Part shown: piece by piece, positions 20,340 to 27,420 of the stretch
How positions within the stretch are numbered: the first letter of the stretch is position 1
Layout of the letters: the number at the start of each line of letters is the position of its first letter
Assembly: GCA_017557885.1 (NCBI GenBank)
Contig: JAFYXV010000004.1
Span: 1 to 64,000, forward strand
Length of the DNA stretch: 64,000 nucleotides
Direction: 5' to 3'
From: a bacterium
GTDB taxonomy: Bacteria > Auribacterota > UBA3054
Notes under the pieces: model-generated
Database searches by the model: none
What the model saw: the letters and a program-made list of their open reading frames with translations, nothing else
What the model was told of the DNA's origin: nothing
Program-made: the position numbers and the translations under genes

Positions 20340-21935
20340 ATGCGCCTTAAAAGCTTCTTTTTGACGGCCGTAGTTTTCTTTATGGTGGGAGCGACATTAG
20401 CCGACACTGTCACGCAGGAGGTCGTGAACGTTCAAAAATATGTAAAAGGTTCGACAACGCTTAAGCTGAGCGGAACGCTAAGCGAAACCGCCATACAAGC
20501 GCTTGCCGAAGGAAAGAGCAGCGTCTCTGTTTGCAACAACCTCGGCAGTTATCTTTTTAGTCCGACGCTGATTCCTGAAGGGAAGAACGGCTACGGGCTT
20601 AAGACCGATAGTCAGAAGATCTCCGTTAAACTGAAAAACGGAAAATTCAGTTGGACGGTAAAAGACGTTGCCGCGAATTTTGCTTTTGTTATAGGGACAG
20701 AAACTATTAAGCCCGACAAAGCGGCATTGAAATCTTCCGGAACGATAGATACAAAAGACATCGACAACTTCAAGACGCAAAAAGCAACAGTCTTGGACAT
20801 ATTGTCCTACGAAAAAGGTCAGGGAAGCGTCGCGGCTTACACCTTCACTCCGGAAAGCACAGGCAATAATTTTAAGCACGCTAATAAAGGTACTGATCTG
20901 CAAGTTAAGTTTTCCGCCAATTCCAAAGGCAAAGCGACAGCGACATTCAAGCTTCTTCCCAACGCCGCTTCTCCTGCGTTCGTAAGCGACAATTCTATTG
21001 CTCCCACTAATCTTCCTCCTGTTGATCCTACCAATCCTCCGGTAGTAACAAACAGATTGTACATGGTCATCGATCTTTCGGGAGGTCCCGACGCCGAAAG
21101 CTATCCGATAAGCTATCTCAATGGAGTTCCCGAAGGCGGCTGGACGGAGGAATACAAGACCACAAAGATGGTGCTAAGTAAGATCAATGCTGGCAAATTC
21201 ACCATGGGCGGCCCCGAGAACGAGCTTGGCAGACAAAAAAACGAAGTGCAGCACGAAGTGACTTTGACCCAACCTTTCTACGCAGGCGTGTTTGAAGTCA
21301 CCCAAAAGCAATATGAACTAGTAACGGGAAACGATCCTTCGTTATATAAGGGCGACGCGCGGCCTGTGGAGTATGTTTCCTACAATATGCTCCGCGGAAC
21401 GGATAAGGGCGCAGCCTGGCCTGCTAACAATGACGTTGACGAAACCTCTTTCTTTGGGATCCTGCGCGCCAAGACCGGTTTGAACTTCGATCTTCCCACG
21501 GAAGCCCAGTGGGAGTTCGCCTGCAGGGCAGGAACGGTAACGGCGCTTAACAGCGGCAAGAATCTGACCGCCACACGTAATTGTCCCAACATGTCGGAAG
21601 TTGGTTTCTATCATTTTAATGGCGGCGGAGATGAAGATGAATCTGGAAATATCATTGGTACTTCCGAAGTCGGCTTATATCTTCCCAACGCCTGGGGACT
21701 CTACGACATGCACGGCAACGTGTATGAGTGGTGTCTCGACTGGGATGGAAAGTATGTTGATTCCGCAGTTGCGGATCCAAAAGGCCCGGAAAGCGGAGAT
21801 CTCCGTATGCTCCGGGGCGGTGGCTTATACAGCAACGCTTTCTGCTGCCGCTCTGCCTACCGTTGGAGCCAACTCCCCTCCGCCACCTTCGGCGACTACG
21901 GCTTCCGTGTGTTTTTAACTCAAGATTCAAAGTAG
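20340..21935 (+). CDS. exported SUMF1/FGE-domain protein
   Basis: 531-aa protein. A signal peptide (1-21) is followed by a beta-rich N-terminal region of about 200 residues shared with the 1756-aa neighbour (KYVKGSTTLKLSGTL), a Pro-rich linker (PTNLPPVDPTNPPVV, about 222-236) and an FGE/SUMF1 domain (about 281-531) with FDLPTEAQWEFACRAGT, NAWGLYDMHGNVYEW and RSAYRWS. The fold is a C-type-lectin-like variant. Catalytic FGE activity is doubtful without a sulfatase partner nearby, so ligand binding is more likely. The C-terminal 108 bp is variable against the homologues in a DGR-like pattern. Confidence 0.85.
   Translation: MRLKSFFLTAVVFFMVGATLADTVTQEVVNVQKYVKGSTTLKLSGTLSETAIQALAEGKSSVSVCNNLGSYLFSPTLIPEGKNGYGLKTDSQKISVKLKNGKFSWTVKDVAANFAFVIGTETIKPDKAALKSSGTIDTKDIDNFKTQKATVLDILSYEKGQGSVAAYTFTPESTGNNFKHANKGTDLQVKFSANSKGKATATFKLLPNAASPAFVSDNSIAPTNLPPVDPTNPPVVTNRLYMVIDLSGGPDAESYPISYLNGVPEGGWTEEYKTTKMVLSKINAGKFTMGGPENELGRQKNEVQHEVTLTQPFYAGVFEVTQKQYELVTGNDPSLYKGDARPVEYVSYNMLRGTDKGAAWPANNDVDETSFFGILRAKTGLNFDLPTEAQWEFACRAGTVTALNSGKNLTATRNCPNMSEVGFYHFNGGGDEDESGNIIGTSEVGLYLPNAWGLYDMHGNVYEWCLDWDGKYVDSAVADPKGPESGDLRMLRGGGLYSNAFCCRSAYRWSQLPSATFGDYGFRVFLTQDSK
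21804..21911 (+). repeat. variable segment of FGE domain (VR-like 1)
   Basis: A 108-bp coding segment from CGTATGCTCCGGGG to GGCTTCCGTGTG. Compared with the copies at 23886 and 25017, the core CTGCCGCTCTGC is kept, while many codons change in bases one and two but keep C in base three. That is the pattern expected from mutated AAC template codons. Confidence 0.55.
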
Positions 21936-21995
21936 AAAAGCAAGTAAAAAACTTGGCTCTGCTGACATATAGTGAAGGATTTTAAAGATTTTATG

Positions 21996-22024
21996 TTGCA
22001 AATTTGAATGGCATTTGCTACCAT
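21996..22024 (+). promoter_or_regulatory. promoter before four-domain SUMF1 gene
   Basis: TTGCAA, 17-bp spacer, TACCAT within an extended TGCTACCAT. It is about 60 bp upstream of the ATG at 22086, which has a strong Shine-Dalgarno GGGAGGA (22074-22080). Confidence 0.45.
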
Positions 22025-22085
22025 GAACCTGATACGTAAGCGCCAATAACTCTTTATCAACATTTCCTTTTTTGGGAGGAACCAA

Positions 22086-25000
22086 ATGAAAAATACAGCT
22101 TTTTTAATCATTGCCATGATACTTATGGCTGGGGAAATATTCGCCGGTTCTGTCGTTACAAACAGAAATGTGAAAGCGCTAAGTTTTATAAAAGGCTCGT
22201 CAACTCTAAATTTGAGCGGGCAGATGAACGACGCGGCCATGCAGAGCATTTCGAAAGGCAACGAAATAGCAGTCTACAATTACCTTGACAGCTATTTGGT
22301 ATTCCCGACGCTGTTTCCAAGGACGAAAGCGGGATTCGGAACAAAGACCGCGACTCGGAATGTTTCCGTGAATGCGAAAAACGGCAAATTTAATTGGACT
22401 GAAAAAGACGTCACGCCCTATTTCGCGTTCGCGACGGGAAATGAAAAAATAAGACCAAGCAAAGCCGTTTTCAAATCCAAAGGCACGCTGCAGACATCCG
22501 AACTGGCGGAACTTGAAAACAAGCGGTTTACTGTCTTCGATATGCTGTGCTCCGAGCAGGGCTTGGGATATCTTGCTTCCTTAGCCTTAATTCCTGAAAT
22601 AAAAGGCAAGAATTATAAGTTTTCTTATAATGATGGAAAATTTCAGGTAAAAGGTTCAATTGATCCCAAAGGAAAAGTCACCGCCAAGTATGCGATTCCT
22701 TTTCCTATAGCGTATCCTGTTTTTCTCGAAAGCGAAGATTTCTTCACGAACAAATATGATTATTCCTTGGTGATCGTCGGCGAAGGCGAAGTAAAGTCTG
22801 GTTATTACGAACCTGACAAGGTCGAGTTTAGAGTAACAAAAAACAAAGACAAGTTCCGCTATTTCTTCTACAACGGCACAAAAGTTACAAACGATTTCAT
22901 GAAGCTTGAACTGGAGGCTGATACGGATGTCACGGCAGTTTTCGGCACTTATGATTTTTCGCTCAACGTTGTCGGCGACGGAGCTGTAAGCGCTGAGTTT
23001 ACAGGCCCTGACGAAGTGGAACTTAAAGTTACGGATGGCAGCGAACTTTTCTTTTATTACGATGTTAATGGTGAGAAATTCACAGACAGTAATATGACGC
23101 TTTCTTTGCAAGGAGATACGGTCGTTGAGGCGTATTTTAAAGATGATTATATTGTCGTCGATCTTAGCGGCGGACCTAACGCTAAAAGTTATCCTGTAAC
23201 CCATATCTATGCTGTTCCTGAAGGCGGCTGGACGGAAGAATACAAGACCACCAAGCTGGTATTGAGAAAAATCAAACCGGGAACCTTCACCATGGGCAGT
23301 CCGAAGAATGAATTGGGTAGAGATGATAACGAAACCCAGCATCAAGTTACTCTTACCAACGCCTACTATATAGGAGTATTTGAAGTTACGCAGAAACAGT
23401 ATCAGCTTATCACCGGAATCTATCCCGCGTATTATGAAGGAAATGCCAGACCAGTGGAGACCGTTTCCTACAATGTGCTCCGAGGAAGCGATAAAGGTGC
23501 AACTTGGCCTGTTAGTTACGATGTGGACGAGACATCATTCTTCGGCAAACTTCGCACTAAAACTCAAATGACTTTCGATCTTCCCACAGAAGCACAGTGG
23601 GAGTACGCCTGCAGAGCAGGCACGACCACAGCCTTGAACAGCGGAAAGAATCTGTCAGACGAGAAACACTGTGGTGAAATGGCTGAGGTAGGCCGCTACT
23701 TTTTCAACCAAAATGTTGGCGAAGGCGGGTACAAAAATCATACAACTGTAGGCTCCTATCTTCAGAACGCCTGGGGCTTGTATGATATGCACGGGAACGT
23801 CTGGGAGTGGTGTCTTGACTGGTACCAATCTGACCTGGGCAGCGATCAGGCAACGGAGCCGCTCGGTACTAGCTGGGGAGCGGACCGTGTTCTCCGAGGC
23901 GGGAGCTGGTACGACGACGCCTACCGCTGCCGCTCTGCTGTCCGCGTTTACAACAAACCTGACGCCGGCAGCACCAATTATGGTTTCCGTGTAGCTTTAG
24001 TTCAAAATGTGTTTTCTGGCCCGGACAATCAAATTCAAAAGGATTTTGAATTTGAGATTGAATCCGGGACAGAAAACACGCTGCCAATTTTCCAAACCAA
24101 GTTTTATGGAAAGCTGAAGAACGGCACGGAAAAATTGCTGGAGGAGATGGGCAGGCTTGAATATGACGGCGCTAGCGGGATCGTGTCTGGATTTGGAAAG
24201 CACAAGCTGACTTGGATCCCTGACGCGGCTTTCACCAACATAATGGACGAAGTTGAATTGAGAGTTGAATACGAAGACGTGACGGAACAGGCTAATTATC
24301 TTGTTCTTGACACGACGAGCAATAAGATGCGCGTATCGCCGGATGCTCCTAATACAACTGATGACAAATGTCGTACGGATGAACTCTGGCTGAGAAGGAT
24401 CGAACCAGGGACGTTTACCATGGGCAGTCCGAAGAATGAATTGGGTAGAGATGATAGCGAAACTCAGCATGAAGTTACGCTTACTAAGGCTTATTACATC
24501 GGCGTGTTCGAAATGACGCAAAAACAATGCTACAATATCATGGGTGTTAATCCGTCAAGCCATATAGGCGATTTGAGGCCAGTGGAATCTGTTTCCTATG
24601 ATATGCTTAGAGGAACAAAAGATGGTTCTGCTTGGCCTAAGAACAACGGTGTTGACGAGAATAGTTTCATGGGTCAGCTGAGAAAAAAGGCCGGCAATAT
24701 CTTTGATCTTCCTACTGAAGCGCAGTGGGAGTTTGCCTGCAGAGCAGGCACGACCACGGCGCTGAACAACGGAACAAATCTTACCAATGTGTATGAAGAC
24801 GGCAACATGAACAAGCTTGGGCGGTATTATTACAATTATACTGACTGGAAAGGCGGCTACAAATATAATTATAATCACACCAAAGTCGGTTCGTATCTTC
24901 CCAACGCCTGGGGACTCTATGACATGCATGGCAACGTGAATGAGTGGTGCTTGGATTGGTATAAGTCGTATCGCGGAAACGCTACCGATCCGAAAGGCGC

Positions 25001-27356
25001 AAACAGCGGAAGTTCCCGTGTTCTCCGGGGCGGGGGCTGGGGCGACGGCGCCGACGGCTGCCGCTCTGCTGGCCGCAACGGCAACGCCCCCGACGACGGC
25101 AACAAACTCTACGGCTTCCGTGTGACCCTAGTCCCTGGCCCGGACAATCAAATTCAAAAGGATTTTGAATTTGAGATTGAATCCGGGACAGAAAACACCC
25201 TGCCAATTTTTCAAACCAAGTTTTACGGAAAGCTGAAGAACGGCACGGAAAAACTGCTGGAGGAGATGGGCAGGCTTGAATATGACGGCGCCAGCGGAAT
25301 AGTGGCAGGAATAGGCAAGCATAAGTTGACATGGATCCCGGACGCTGCTTACACAAATATAATGAATGAAGTGGAATTGAGAATCGAATACGAGGATGTT
25401 ACAGAACAGGCAACATATCTTGTTTTGAATACTACGAGCAATAAGATGCTCGTTTCGTCGGAAGGTCCGGATATTGCGGACGATAAATGTCGTATGGAAG
25501 AGCTTTGGTTAAGGAGAATAGAGCCAGGTACGTTCGCTATGGGAAGCCCGGAAAATGAAATAGGCAGAGGGGATAATGAAATAAAGCATACAGTTGTTAT
25601 TAAGAGAGCATACTATATCGGCGTCTTTGAAACGACACAAAAACAGTATGAACTAATTTCTGGAAACAATCCCTCAAAATTCAAAGGTGACATGCGACCG
25701 GTAGAAAGCGTTTCTTATGATCTGCTCAGAGGGGAATACGATGGCTCTATGTGGCCGGAAGACTATGGAGTTGACGAGGGAAGCTTCATGGGGCAGCTGA
25801 GAAAAAAGGCTGGAAACATCTTTGATCTTCCCACGGAAGCACAGTGGGAGTATGCCTGCAGAGCAGGTAAGAGTACGGCACTTAACAGCGGGAAAAATCT
25901 TACTGATAAAACAAAGTGTTCAAATATGGATGAGGTTGGACGATACGTTTATAATAAAAACGATGGAAAGGGAGTATACAGCGAGCACACCGTTGTCGGA
26001 TCCTACCTTCCCAACGCCTGGGGGCTCTATGATATGCATGGCAATGTTTGGGAGTGGTGTCTTGATTGGTATAGTGCATTTGCAACTTCAAAAGGGGCAA
26101 CAAATGGCACTTCTCGTGTGCTTCGAGGAGGGGACTTTAATAGCCCAGCTTACGTCTGTCGTTCCGCTGAACGCTTTAACAACAAACCTTACGCCGGCAA
26201 CAACAATTATGGTTTCCGTGTAGCTTTAGTTCAAAATGTGTTTTCTGAATCGGGTAATCAAATTCAAAAGGATTTTGAATATGAAATTATATCTGAGTCA
26301 AATAATATTCTGCCTGTTTTTGAGGTCAAGTTTTATGGAATAATGCCGAACGGTAAAGAGTATCTTCTTGAAGAGATAGGAAAAATTGAATGCGACGGGG
26401 CATCAGGCATAGTGATGAGAAAAGGCAAACATAAATTGACTTGGATTCCAGATTCAGCTTATACAAACATAATGGACGAAGTGGAATTGAGAGTTGAATA
26501 CGAAGATGTGACTGAACAAGCAAATTATCTTGTCCTGGATTTGTCGAGTAATAAAATGCGCGTTTCAACGGAAGGCCCGGATACGACAAACGACAAATGC
26601 CGTACGGATGAACTTTGGCTTAGAAGGATCGTGCCGGGGCAATTCTCAATGGGCAGTCCGCCAAGAGAACTTGGGAGTTACGACAACGAAACTTGGCATC
26701 GAGTAACGCTTACCAAGGCTTATTACATCGGTATATTTGAAACGACTCAGAAACATTTCGAATTAATTACTGGAAATAATCCATCAGCTCTAAAAGGCGA
26801 TGCTAGGCCAGTGGAAACAGTCTCCTACGACATTCTTCGCGGTGATTCTTGGCCTTACACCGATGAAGTGGACGAGGACTCCTTTTTCGGCATTCTTCGC
26901 TCTAAAACGCAAATGATTTTCGACCTGCCTACGGAAGCACAGTGGGAGTATGCCTGCAGAGCAGGTAAGAGTACGGCACTTAACAGCGGGAAAAATCTTA
27001 CTGATAAAACAAAGTGTTCAAATATGGATGAGGTTGGACGATACCTTTATAATAAAAACGATGGAAAGGGAGTATACAGCGAGCACACCATTGTCGGATC
27101 CTACCTTCCCAACGCCTGGGGGCTTTATGATATGCATGGCAATGTTTGGGAGTGGTGTCTGGATTGGTATCAGGCGGATCTTGGCACGCTATCTGAAACG
27201 GATCCTGCAGGAGCAAAAAGTGGTGATGAACGTGTTTTAAGAGGCGGTGCTTGGAATGGCACGGCCAGCCGTTGTCGCTCTGCTATCCGTAGTAATGCTA
27301 ATCCTGTCACCAGGAAAAGCGACAAATATGGTTTCCGTGTAGTTCTAGTTCAATAA
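22086..27356 (+). CDS. 1756-aa surface protein with four SUMF1/FGE domains
   Basis: After a signal peptide (1-20) comes a 200-residue region shared with the 531-aa neighbour. Two InlB B-repeat-like modules follow (YSLVIVGEGEVKSGYYEP and FSLNVVGDGAVSAEF, about 220-355), then four FGE domains at about 394-636, 770-1013, 1142-1379 and 1512-1755. These are joined by three copies of a module of about 125 residues (starting near QIQKDFEFEIE). Each FGE domain has DLPTEAQWE and NAWGLYDMHGNV. Known families suggest C-type-lectin-like ligand binding at the cell surface. Each domain ends in a variable 108-111 bp segment. Blocks of near-identical DNA between domains point to recent duplication or gene conversion. 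Confidence 0.88.
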   Translation: MKNTAFLIIAMILMAGEIFAGSVVTNRNVKALSFIKGSSTLNLSGQMNDAAMQSISKGNEIAVYNYLDSYLVFPTLFPRTKAGFGTKTATRNVSVNAKNGKFNWTEKDVTPYFAFATGNEKIRPSKAVFKSKGTLQTSELAELENKRFTVFDMLCSEQGLGYLASLALIPEIKGKNYKFSYNDGKFQVKGSIDPKGKVTAKYAIPFPIAYPVFLESEDFFTNKYDYSLVIVGEGEVKSGYYEPDKVEFRVTKNKDKFRYFFYNGTKVTNDFMKLELEADTDVTAVFGTYDFSLNVVGDGAVSAEFTGPDEVELKVTDGSELFFYYDVNGEKFTDSNMTLSLQGDTVVEAYFKDDYIVVDLSGGPNAKSYPVTHIYAVPEGGWTEEYKTTKLVLRKIKPGTFTMGSPKNELGRDDNETQHQVTLTNAYYIGVFEVTQKQYQLITGIYPAYYEGNARPVETVSYNVLRGSDKGATWPVSYDVDETSFFGKLRTKTQMTFDLPTEAQWEYACRAGTTTALNSGKNLSDEKHCGEMAEVGRYFFNQNVGEGGYKNHTTVGSYLQNAWGLYDMHGNVWEWCLDWYQSDLGSDQATEPLGTSWGADRVLRGGSWYDDAYRCRSAVRVYNKPDAGSTNYGFRVALVQNVFSGPDNQIQKDFEFEIESGTENTLPIFQTKFYGKLKNGTEKLLEEMGRLEYDGASGIVSGFGKHKLTWIPDAAFTNIMDEVELRVEYEDVTEQANYLVLDTTSNKMRVSPDAPNTTDDKCRTDELWLRRIEPGTFTMGSPKNELGRDDSETQHEVTLTKAYYIGVFEMTQKQCYNIMGVNPSSHIGDLRPVESVSYDMLRGTKDGSAWPKNNGVDENSFMGQLRKKAGNIFDLPTEAQWEFACRAGTTTALNNGTNLTNVYEDGNMNKLGRYYYNYTDWKGGYKYNYNHTKVGSYLPNAWGLYDMHGNVNEWCLDWYKSYRGNATDPKGANSGSSRVLRGGGWGDGADGCRSAGRNGNAPDDGNKLYGFRVTLVPGPDNQIQKDFEFEIESGTENTLPIFQTKFYGKLKNGTEKLLEEMGRLEYDGASGIVAGIGKHKLTWIPDAAYTNIMNEVELRIEYEDVTEQATYLVLNTTSNKMLVSSEGPDIADDKCRMEELWLRRIEPGTFAMGSPENEIGRGDNEIKHTVVIKRAYYIGVFETTQKQYELISGNNPSKFKGDMRPVESVSYDLLRGEYDGSMWPEDYGVDEGSFMGQLRKKAGNIFDLPTEAQWEYACRAGKSTALNSGKNLTDKTKCSNMDEVGRYVYNKNDGKGVYSEHTVVGSYLPNAWGLYDMHGNVWEWCLDWYSAFATSKGATNGTSRVLRGGDFNSPAYVCRSAERFNNKPYAGNNNYGFRVALVQNVFSESGNQIQKDFEYEIISESNNILPVFEVKFYGIMPNGKEYLLEEIGKIECDGASGIVMRKGKHKLTWIPDSAYTNIMDEVELRVEYEDVTEQANYLVLDLSSNKMRVSTEGPDTTNDKCRTDELWLRRIVPGQFSMGSPPRELGSYDNETWHRVTLTKAYYIGIFETTQKHFELITGNNPSALKGDARPVETVSYDILRGDSWPYTDEVDEDSFFGILRSKTQMIFDLPTEAQWEYACRAGKSTALNSGKNLTDKTKCSNMDEVGRYLYNKNDGKGVYSEHTIVGSYLPNAWGLYDMHGNVWEWCLDWYQADLGTLSETDPAGAKSGDERVLRGGAWNGTASRCRSAIRSNANPVTRKSDKYGFRVVLVQ
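23886..23993 (+). repeat. variable segment of FGE domain 1 (VR-like 2)
   Basis: 108 bp, encoding RVLRGGSWYDDAYRCRSAVR and onward to YGFRV. Variable codons are TAC, GAC, GAC, TAC, CGC and GTC where copy 3 has GGC, GAC, GGC, GAC, GGC and GGC. Confidence 0.55.
24020..24172 (+). repeat. duplicated linker module, copy 1
   Basis: Nearly identical to 25139-25291 (a handful of differences over about 150 bp). It encodes the beta-sandwich-like linker between FGE domains. A third, more diverged copy begins near 26265. Confidence 0.8.
25017..25124 (+). repeat. variable segment of FGE domain 2 (VR-like 3)
   Basis: 108 bp, encoding RVLRGGGWGDGADGCRSAGR and onward to YGFRV. Nearly all variable codons end in C (GGC, GAC, GCC, AAC), the strongest of the segments for an AAC-derived origin. 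Confidence 0.6.
25139..25291 (+). repeat. duplicated linker module, copy 2
   Basis: Partner of 24020-24172 at a 1119-bp offset. High identity over codon third positions indicates a recent event rather than selection on the protein alone. Confidence 0.8.
25833..26072 (+). repeat. near-identical block in FGE domains 3 and 4, copy 1
   Basis: 240 bp matching 26931-27170 with only about four substitutions, although flanking parts of the two domains differ clearly. The block ends before the variable segments, suggesting gene conversion of the conserved core. Confidence 0.85.
26115..26222 (+). repeat. variable segment of FGE domain 3 (VR-like 4)
   Basis: 108 bp, encoding RVLRGGDFNSPAYVCRSAER to YGFRV. 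More AT-rich and with fewer NNC codons than copies 1 to 3, so it may be older. Confidence 0.5.
26931..27170 (+). repeat. near-identical block in FGE domains 3 and 4, copy 2
   Basis: Partner of 25833-26072 at a 1098-bp offset, with about four substitutions. Confidence 0.85.
27231..27341 (+). repeat. variable segment of FGE domain 4 (VR-like 5)
   Basis: 111 bp, encoding RVLRGGAWNGTASRCRSAIR to YGFRV. One codon longer than the other segments. Confidence 0.5.
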
Positions 27357-27358
27357 CA

Positions 27359-27420
27359 CGCTCGCTTTCAGCCACAGCGCGGCGTGGGCGTAAGCCAGCC
27401 GCGCCGGCTGAAAGCGAGCG
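27359..27420. repeat. long stem-loop after SUMF1 gene
   Basis: CGCTCGCTTTCAGCC (27359-27373) is the exact reverse complement of 27406-27420. Inside lies a second GC-rich stem (GCGCGGC with GCCGCGC). There is no following T-run, so it is not a standard terminator. It may be an extragenic palindrome or a structured 3-prime end stabilising the mRNA. It starts only three bases after the stop codon. Confidence 0.7.

Follow-up and report, generated by a model that had tools for sequence, protein, structure and literature searches.

Variable tails of FGE/SUMF1 domains in this bacterium are very probably the variable regions (VRs) of a diversity-generating retroelement (DGR) whose machinery, acting in trans, is mobile, missing from the assembly or only recently lost. 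Sequence comparison and structural modelling give good support to adenine-directed, template-copied diversification, the template adenines themselves being presumed. The points that carry it are the invariance of third codon bases, constant columns poor in A, changes between sister species that are confined to codon bases 1 and 2, hairpins downstream of the tails, and a TvpA-like fold. What the analysis shows is how the substitutions are distributed and that they are recent in several species, compensatory change in the inverted repeats, the fold, and the absence of a reverse transcriptase (RT) and a template from the assemblies; from these we infer the agent (a DGR RT), its action in trans and its location. 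Taken together, the genus-wide tandem FGE family looks like a set of orphan variable regions that have decayed to different degrees and whose target hairpins are long and in frame.

Genome and domain layout

The window (the whole stretch of 64,000 nucleotides that was analysed) is part of contig C3 in a MAG of 13 contigs and 2.24 Mb that is 92.7% complete. The genus consists of ruminant-gut (forestomach) bacteria. FGE-sulfatase matches number 39 in this genome and 15-40 per genome in seven congeners. Two genes in the window encode five FGE domains, D0 to D4:

20340..21935, + strand: 531-aa protein with one C-terminal FGE/SUMF1 domain, D0 (PF03781, 6e-34)
22086..27356, + strand: 1756-aa protein with four tandem FGE domains, D1-D4 (PF03781, four stretches, 7.7e-146)

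Both proteins are likely to carry a Sec signal (judged by eye), and the larger one has an N-terminal region of about 380 aa before its four FGE domains. In a sister species, a synteny search placed a single 815-aa protein with two FGE domains (L141) at the same chromosomal position; compared with the five domains in two proteins found here, this means that the number of FGE domains varies. Within the 1756-aa protein, positions 25830-26077 (D3) and 26928-27175 (D4) are the two copies of a block of 248 bp; they have 8 mismatches between them, stop just short of the tails, and reflect a recent duplication or gene conversion.

The five tails of the window

Each of the five domains ends in an aligned segment, four of 108 bp and one of 111 bp, at the positions given by the original prediction:

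21804..21911, + strand: D0 tail, 108 bp; eroded DGR-type variable region (NNC/NNY 23/28)
23886..23993, + strand: D1 tail, 108 bp; partly eroded, chimeric variable region
25017..25124, + strand: D2 tail, 108 bp; fresh DGR-type variable region (NNC/NNY 25/28)
26115..26222, + strand: D3 tail, 108 bp; ordinary codon usage, with the silent sites of D1 in its 3′ part
27231..27341, + strand: D4 tail, 111 bp; ordinary codon usage, without a variable-region signature

The core CTGCCGCTCTGC, said to be kept in three of them, indeed occurs in D0, D1 and D2 only. The proportion of NNC among NNY codons was compared between each tail and the 170 codons upstream of that tail. It is clearly raised in D2 (25/28 in the tail against 48/104 upstream, p=3e-5) and in D0 (23/28 against 55/103, p=0.008); the value for D1 (20/28 against 53/97) is not significant alone, and D3 (14/26) and D4 (11/27) are like the codons upstream of them. 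When the test is stratified by amino acid, the bias persists in D2 (odds ratio 8.2, p=0.0012) and D0 (3.3, p=0.04), and is not significant in D1, D3 or D4. The retention of C at base three, which had been claimed for all five segments, holds strongly for D2, also for D0 and more weakly for D1, and fails for D3 and D4, which have NNC/NNY proportions like those upstream. Neither does the 1756-aa protein have four variable tips, as had been supposed, nor the locus five; D2 alone is fresh, D1 and D0 have eroded in part, and codon usage in D3 and D4 is ordinary.

D3 nevertheless retains a partial trace of the variable-region pattern. Over about 24 codons in the 3′ part of the tail, D1 and D3 differ at five first or second bases and at no silent site, and they are divergent beyond; a common 3′ tract followed by divergence fits what is expected of partial VR replacement.

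Substitution pattern in related cassettes

Cleaner cassettes lie on two other contigs of the same genome, where a 1081-aa protein on C7 (C7:132055-135300) and an 804-aa protein on C9 (C9:16975-19389) have two cassette tails apiece. Their constant DNA reads CTC CGG GGC GGG RGC TGG NNC NNC NNC GCC NNC NNC TGC CGC TCC GCT NNC CGC ..., ending in GGC TTT CGT, or, as a pattern, CTCCGGGGCGGGAGCTGG(NNC)3GCC(NNC)2TGCCGCTCCGCT. D2 groups with these tails, sharing their constant DNA and differing from them at 4-5 third bases; D1 and D0, with 9-11 third-base differences, are eroded relatives.

Among the four C7/C9 tails, pairs differ at codon base 3 in 0-2 of 34-37 codons, compared with 72-92 of 135-169 codons upstream (0-6% versus 47-63%; p 1.8e-6 to 1.7e-13), while differences at bases 1 and 2 equal those upstream or exceed them. 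An even spread of substitutions over codon positions, which had been named beforehand as part of the evidence that would speak against a DGR, is clearly not what is seen; base 3 is near-invariant. The third-base drop was not seen in seven other tails of the window's genome. Over seven tails of the window's genome taken together, the start of the tail marks an abrupt drop in silent diversity, from 0.35-0.60 to 0.12-0.32.

Column counts were made on five fresh tails (D2 and four on other contigs), with a control block taken from the same domains. Variable columns at codon bases 1, 2 and 3 number 6/5/1 in the tails and 4/3/20 in the control block, a pattern that goes beyond chance. A is present in 1/45 constant columns of the tails versus 11/48 in the control block, and in 9/12 of the variable columns of the tails. 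The amino-acid-stratified odds ratio for NNC is 11.9 in C7/C9 (p=9e-17), and 12.3 and 8.3 in the sister genomes G003 and G006; since the bias survives stratification, it is not an amino-acid effect.

Inverted repeats downstream of the tails

About 20 nt 3′ of the internal variable tails lies an inverted repeat of 20-31 bp, in the reading frame, which the original prediction had missed. The copies in the window, together with a palindrome beyond the last domain, are:

24009..24079, + strand: inverted repeat 3′ of the D1 tail, in frame; long hairpin (z -7.2), a proposed target-recognition hairpin or cruciform
25135..25191, + strand: inverted repeat 3′ of the D2 tail, in frame; outer arm decayed (z -4.6)
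26258..26284, + strand: decayed inverted-repeat remnant 3′ of D3 (region z -1.2)
27359..27420, + strand: palindrome past the stop codon, with arms CGCTCGCTTTCAGCC/GGCTGAAAGCGAGCG

Counterparts are present on C7 and C9 and in G003 and G006. DNA folding gives z values of -4.6 to -7.2 for D1, D2, C7 and C9, and of -1.2 after D3; in the sister genomes they are -5.4 to -5.8 (G003:C15, G006:C142) and -2.7 (G003:C113). In an alignment of eight inverted repeats, 93.5% of cells are paired, as against at most 53% for slid controls, and two-sided (compensatory) changes affect five pairs, of which four are changed in the C9 copy. Across 36 internal tails, the hairpin score correlates with the NNC excess (rho 0.70, among relatives that are not independent). 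The loops are short, G(G/A)A, and lie within coding linkers.

Homing of the BPP-1 DGR requires an inverted repeat just 3′ of the VR, the stem structure counting for more than its sequence, and in phage DGRs the repeat lies 4-34 bp from the VR (PMC3240598). The in-frame repeats match the hairpin that a DGR needs for target recognition, and their role in homing is putative. As a feature that was not expected beforehand, they are independent support for the DGR reading.

Only in-frame hairpins were used as evidence. Those past stop codons, including 27359-27420, were excluded because several look like terminators when folded, and may be terminators or repeats; the 27359-27420 palindrome itself may be a target hairpin, a terminator or a REP-like element. 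A palindrome with arms like CTCGCTTTCAGCC/GGCTGAAAGCGAG recurs past the stop codons of FGE genes at L195, L196, L168 and L179.

Fold and likely function

The AlphaFold model of D2 (pLDDT 94) has the C-type lectin fold that is typical, not universal, for DGR targets. Its best match in the PDB is TvpA (Z 31.3, with 215 residues aligned at 1.4 A), a DGR target that the original prediction had cited; PvdO and FGE (Z about 26.5) follow, and TaqVP and Mtd, both DGR proteins, are among the further matches. In an alignment to human FGE, the variable residues coincide with the stretch that holds the catalytic cysteines, at the positions named in the PDB titles (C336S, C341S). The catalytic pair is absent in this alignment, the D2 tail having one cysteine (CRSA). 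With variable residues at the place of the catalytic cysteines, catalysis is not expected, and the domains, as modelled, are most likely binding domains rather than enzymes. The gene products are probably secreted ligand-binding proteins.

Variation between sister species

Orthologous tails were compared across eight genomes, one per species, which together provided 112 tails. The majority are stable between species. In one gene, shared by four species (G003:C111, G004:C81, G005:C107, G002:C29), the 99-nt tail has 6 variable columns, compared with 3 in the 510 nt upstream of it (p=9e-4); none of the six falls on base 3, and five of the six include A. The gene lies in a block of about 0.9-1.2 kb that is 97-99% identical over the four species (L204, L205, L206, L207), while the contigs around it have 76-94% identity in most aligned stretches. 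So similar a block in more divergent surroundings suggests interspecies recombination at the FGE gene; the block was passed among these species in recent time, and the changes in its tail came later. The comparison argues for DGR-type activity in recent time, one locus being a thin basis for it. Fresh tails, almost free of silent erosion, occur at least in G000, G003 and G006.

Search for a reverse transcriptase and a template

The original prediction proposed searching the genome for a DGR RT and an AAC-rich template of about 108 bp, and counted the lack of both as evidence against it; neither was found in the 92.7% complete MAG, which has no RVT_1 domain. It had also placed the machinery, if any, elsewhere; the 15 order genomes searched contained no DGR-type RT, and the 8 genus genomes no template copy, whether with an A-rich 108-nt BLAST query, by pattern, or with the D3 tail as query. 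A 23-nt AAC pattern with 3 mismatches allowed likewise gave 0 template matches in these 8 genomes. The locus is accordingly not classed as a complete DGR.

Several candidates were rejected. Outside G018 and G025, the RVT_1 matches of related genomes show motifs that are group II-like or retron-like, and a 631-aa RT-like ORF in G006 (L046, G006:C178) has QGGALSP and ADD, which is not the DGR motif. BLAST matches to the A-rich or D3-tail queries are only FGE tails or short chance matches, and the template candidates L173 and L178 proved to be FGE tails that lie where contigs end. In IMG/VR, three cassette patterns (including 5′ and 3′ ones) and one TR pattern gave 0 viral matches, and phage and plasmid records contained no template match for the patterns applied; five matches to the NNC pattern in the viral collection are due to chance and have no FGE context. 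The closest viral FGE proteins reach at most 46% identity.

As a positive control from the same phylum, complete DGRs with FGE targets were recovered in G018 (L040) and G025 (L039), which belong to another family than the window's genome. As here, the target is an FGE tail; the RT (IGNLTSQ motif) and TR adjoin it, and 7/7 VR/TR mismatches lie at a template A. This target ends in a PEP-CTERM-like sequence. The same tools found complete DGRs in viral contigs, with 8/9 mismatches at A in L350. RT, TR and VR are all present on L350, L356 and L291, and strong inverted repeats lie within about 110 nt 3′ of the VR on L350 and L356. Four other viral contigs (L312, L313, L346, L354) have several NNC-rich FGE tails each, and the DGR RT motif is absent from the stretch examined.

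If all eight genus MAGs (83-93% complete) carried a chromosomal RT, it is very unlikely that it would have been missed in every one. The machinery would be on an element that escapes binning, or very recently lost.

Competing explanations

A real possibility is that the tails are fossils, that is, that the genus had a DGR in the past, that RT and template were lost, and that the VRs are now decaying unevenly with no ongoing diversification. As to origin, this is a sub-case of the DGR reading. It would account for genus genomes that uniformly lack RT and template, for erosion that is graded from C7/C9 through D2 and D1/D0 to D3/D4 with a decayed hairpin at D3, and for the conservation of several tails between species; Treponema denticola isolates without RT and TR retain leftover targets in the same way (PMC4891356). 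The fresh tails of G000, G003 and G006 fit it poorly, and as the tail changes postdate the sharing of the four-species block, RT and template would have to have disappeared very recently, and in several lineages in parallel.

It is unlikely that the in-frame inverted repeats have nothing to do with homing and are, for example, regulatory hairpins in RNA, or what is left of small inserted elements that were copied with the domain. Several C-terminal hairpins in the genus do end in terminator-like T runs, and the linker repeat moves along with duplicated domains; the internal ones, however, lie within the ORF, carry two-sided compensatory changes, are decayed at VRs that are not fresh, and are found about 20 nt beyond the end of the VR, inside the 4-34 bp range (PMC3240598).

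Ordinary gene conversion among paralogues, with no adenine-directed mutagenesis, is highly improbable as the source of the pattern. Conversion-like tracts do exist, namely the D3/D4 248-bp block, the D1/D3 3′ tract and the interspecies blocks, but conversion is expected to homogenise silent and replacement sites alike, and here only base 3 is affected; moreover, the constant columns lack A, and no donor tails were seen. Ordinary paralogue divergence, in which a diverse loop is positively selected and NNC codons happen to be favoured, is barely credible and largely refuted by the C7/C9 third-base comparison: FGE tails vary naturally between paralogues, and those of D3, D4 and many of the 39 FGE domains look ordinary, but the NNC excess survives amino-acid stratification, silent change is zero or near zero beside many replacements in distant paralogues and near-identical orthologues alike, and the hairpins are left unexplained.

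Against the DGR reading itself count the failure to find RT and template, the differing lengths of the VRs, the stability of most tails between species, and inverted repeats that are longer than the stems described for phage DGRs. Within the window, the adenine-specific DGR mutagenesis originally put forward stands for D2 and, in eroded form, for D1 and D0; it does not extend to the ordinary D3 and D4, and no RT or template was found to accompany it.

Proposed mechanism and relation to known systems

Under the DGR reading, an AAC-rich template RNA would be reverse-transcribed with random incorporation at template adenines, and the cDNA would take the place of the 3′ end of the segment that encodes the domain, with homology and the hairpin or cruciform immediately downstream as guides. 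AAC would become NNC, so that residues on the ligand face of the C-type-lectin fold vary and third bases, like the framework codons free of A, are kept constant. A single source could serve several paralogues, and more than one domain within a protein; as VR lengths differ (33-40 codons), a single template would be insufficient without slippage, or several templates would be needed. A more specific version, in which FGE paralogues of the host are diversified in trans throughout the genus by an RT and template on a separate, normally unassembled plasmid or phage, with the hairpins in coding linkers, is conceivable but rather doubtful.

The nearest parallel is the TvpA DGR of Treponema denticola (PDB 2y3c; PMC4891356), which likewise has an FGE/C-type-lectin target with a C-terminal VR. 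That species has several remote targets per genome, and some isolates have VR-bearing targets and no RT or TR, as here (PMC4891356); orphan VRs as such are therefore already known. RT and TR are present in 9/17 T. denticola strains (PMC4891356), compared with 0/8 genomes of the genus studied here. The present family also differs in that a protein has several FGE domains and, in some cases, two VRs, and in that its inverted repeats are long and in frame.

BPP-1 (mtd; PMC3240598) shares adenine-directed replacement of the 3′ end of the target and an inverted repeat shortly downstream, whose pairing counts for more than its sequence; a difference is that no RT or TR was found here. Its stem is an 8-bp, GC-rich one with a 4-nt loop (PMC3240598), and phage DGR stems are described as 7-10 bp; the repeats here, with 20-31 bp and short G(G/A)A loops, are longer. 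SUMF1/FGE has the same overall fold and PF03781 domain, and it is its catalytic-cysteine stretch that aligns with the variable residues.

Significance

DGR targets can be recognised without an RT or a template, by third-base invariance together with a downstream inverted repeat, and RT-anchored searches will miss genomes with orphan variable regions. The long inverted repeats in the reading frame suggest how targets are chosen, in a model that can be tested. Ruminant-gut bacteria of this kind carry dozens of FGE domains per genome; should the machinery be mobile, a single element could act in trans to diversify many receptors of its host, including several domains of one protein.
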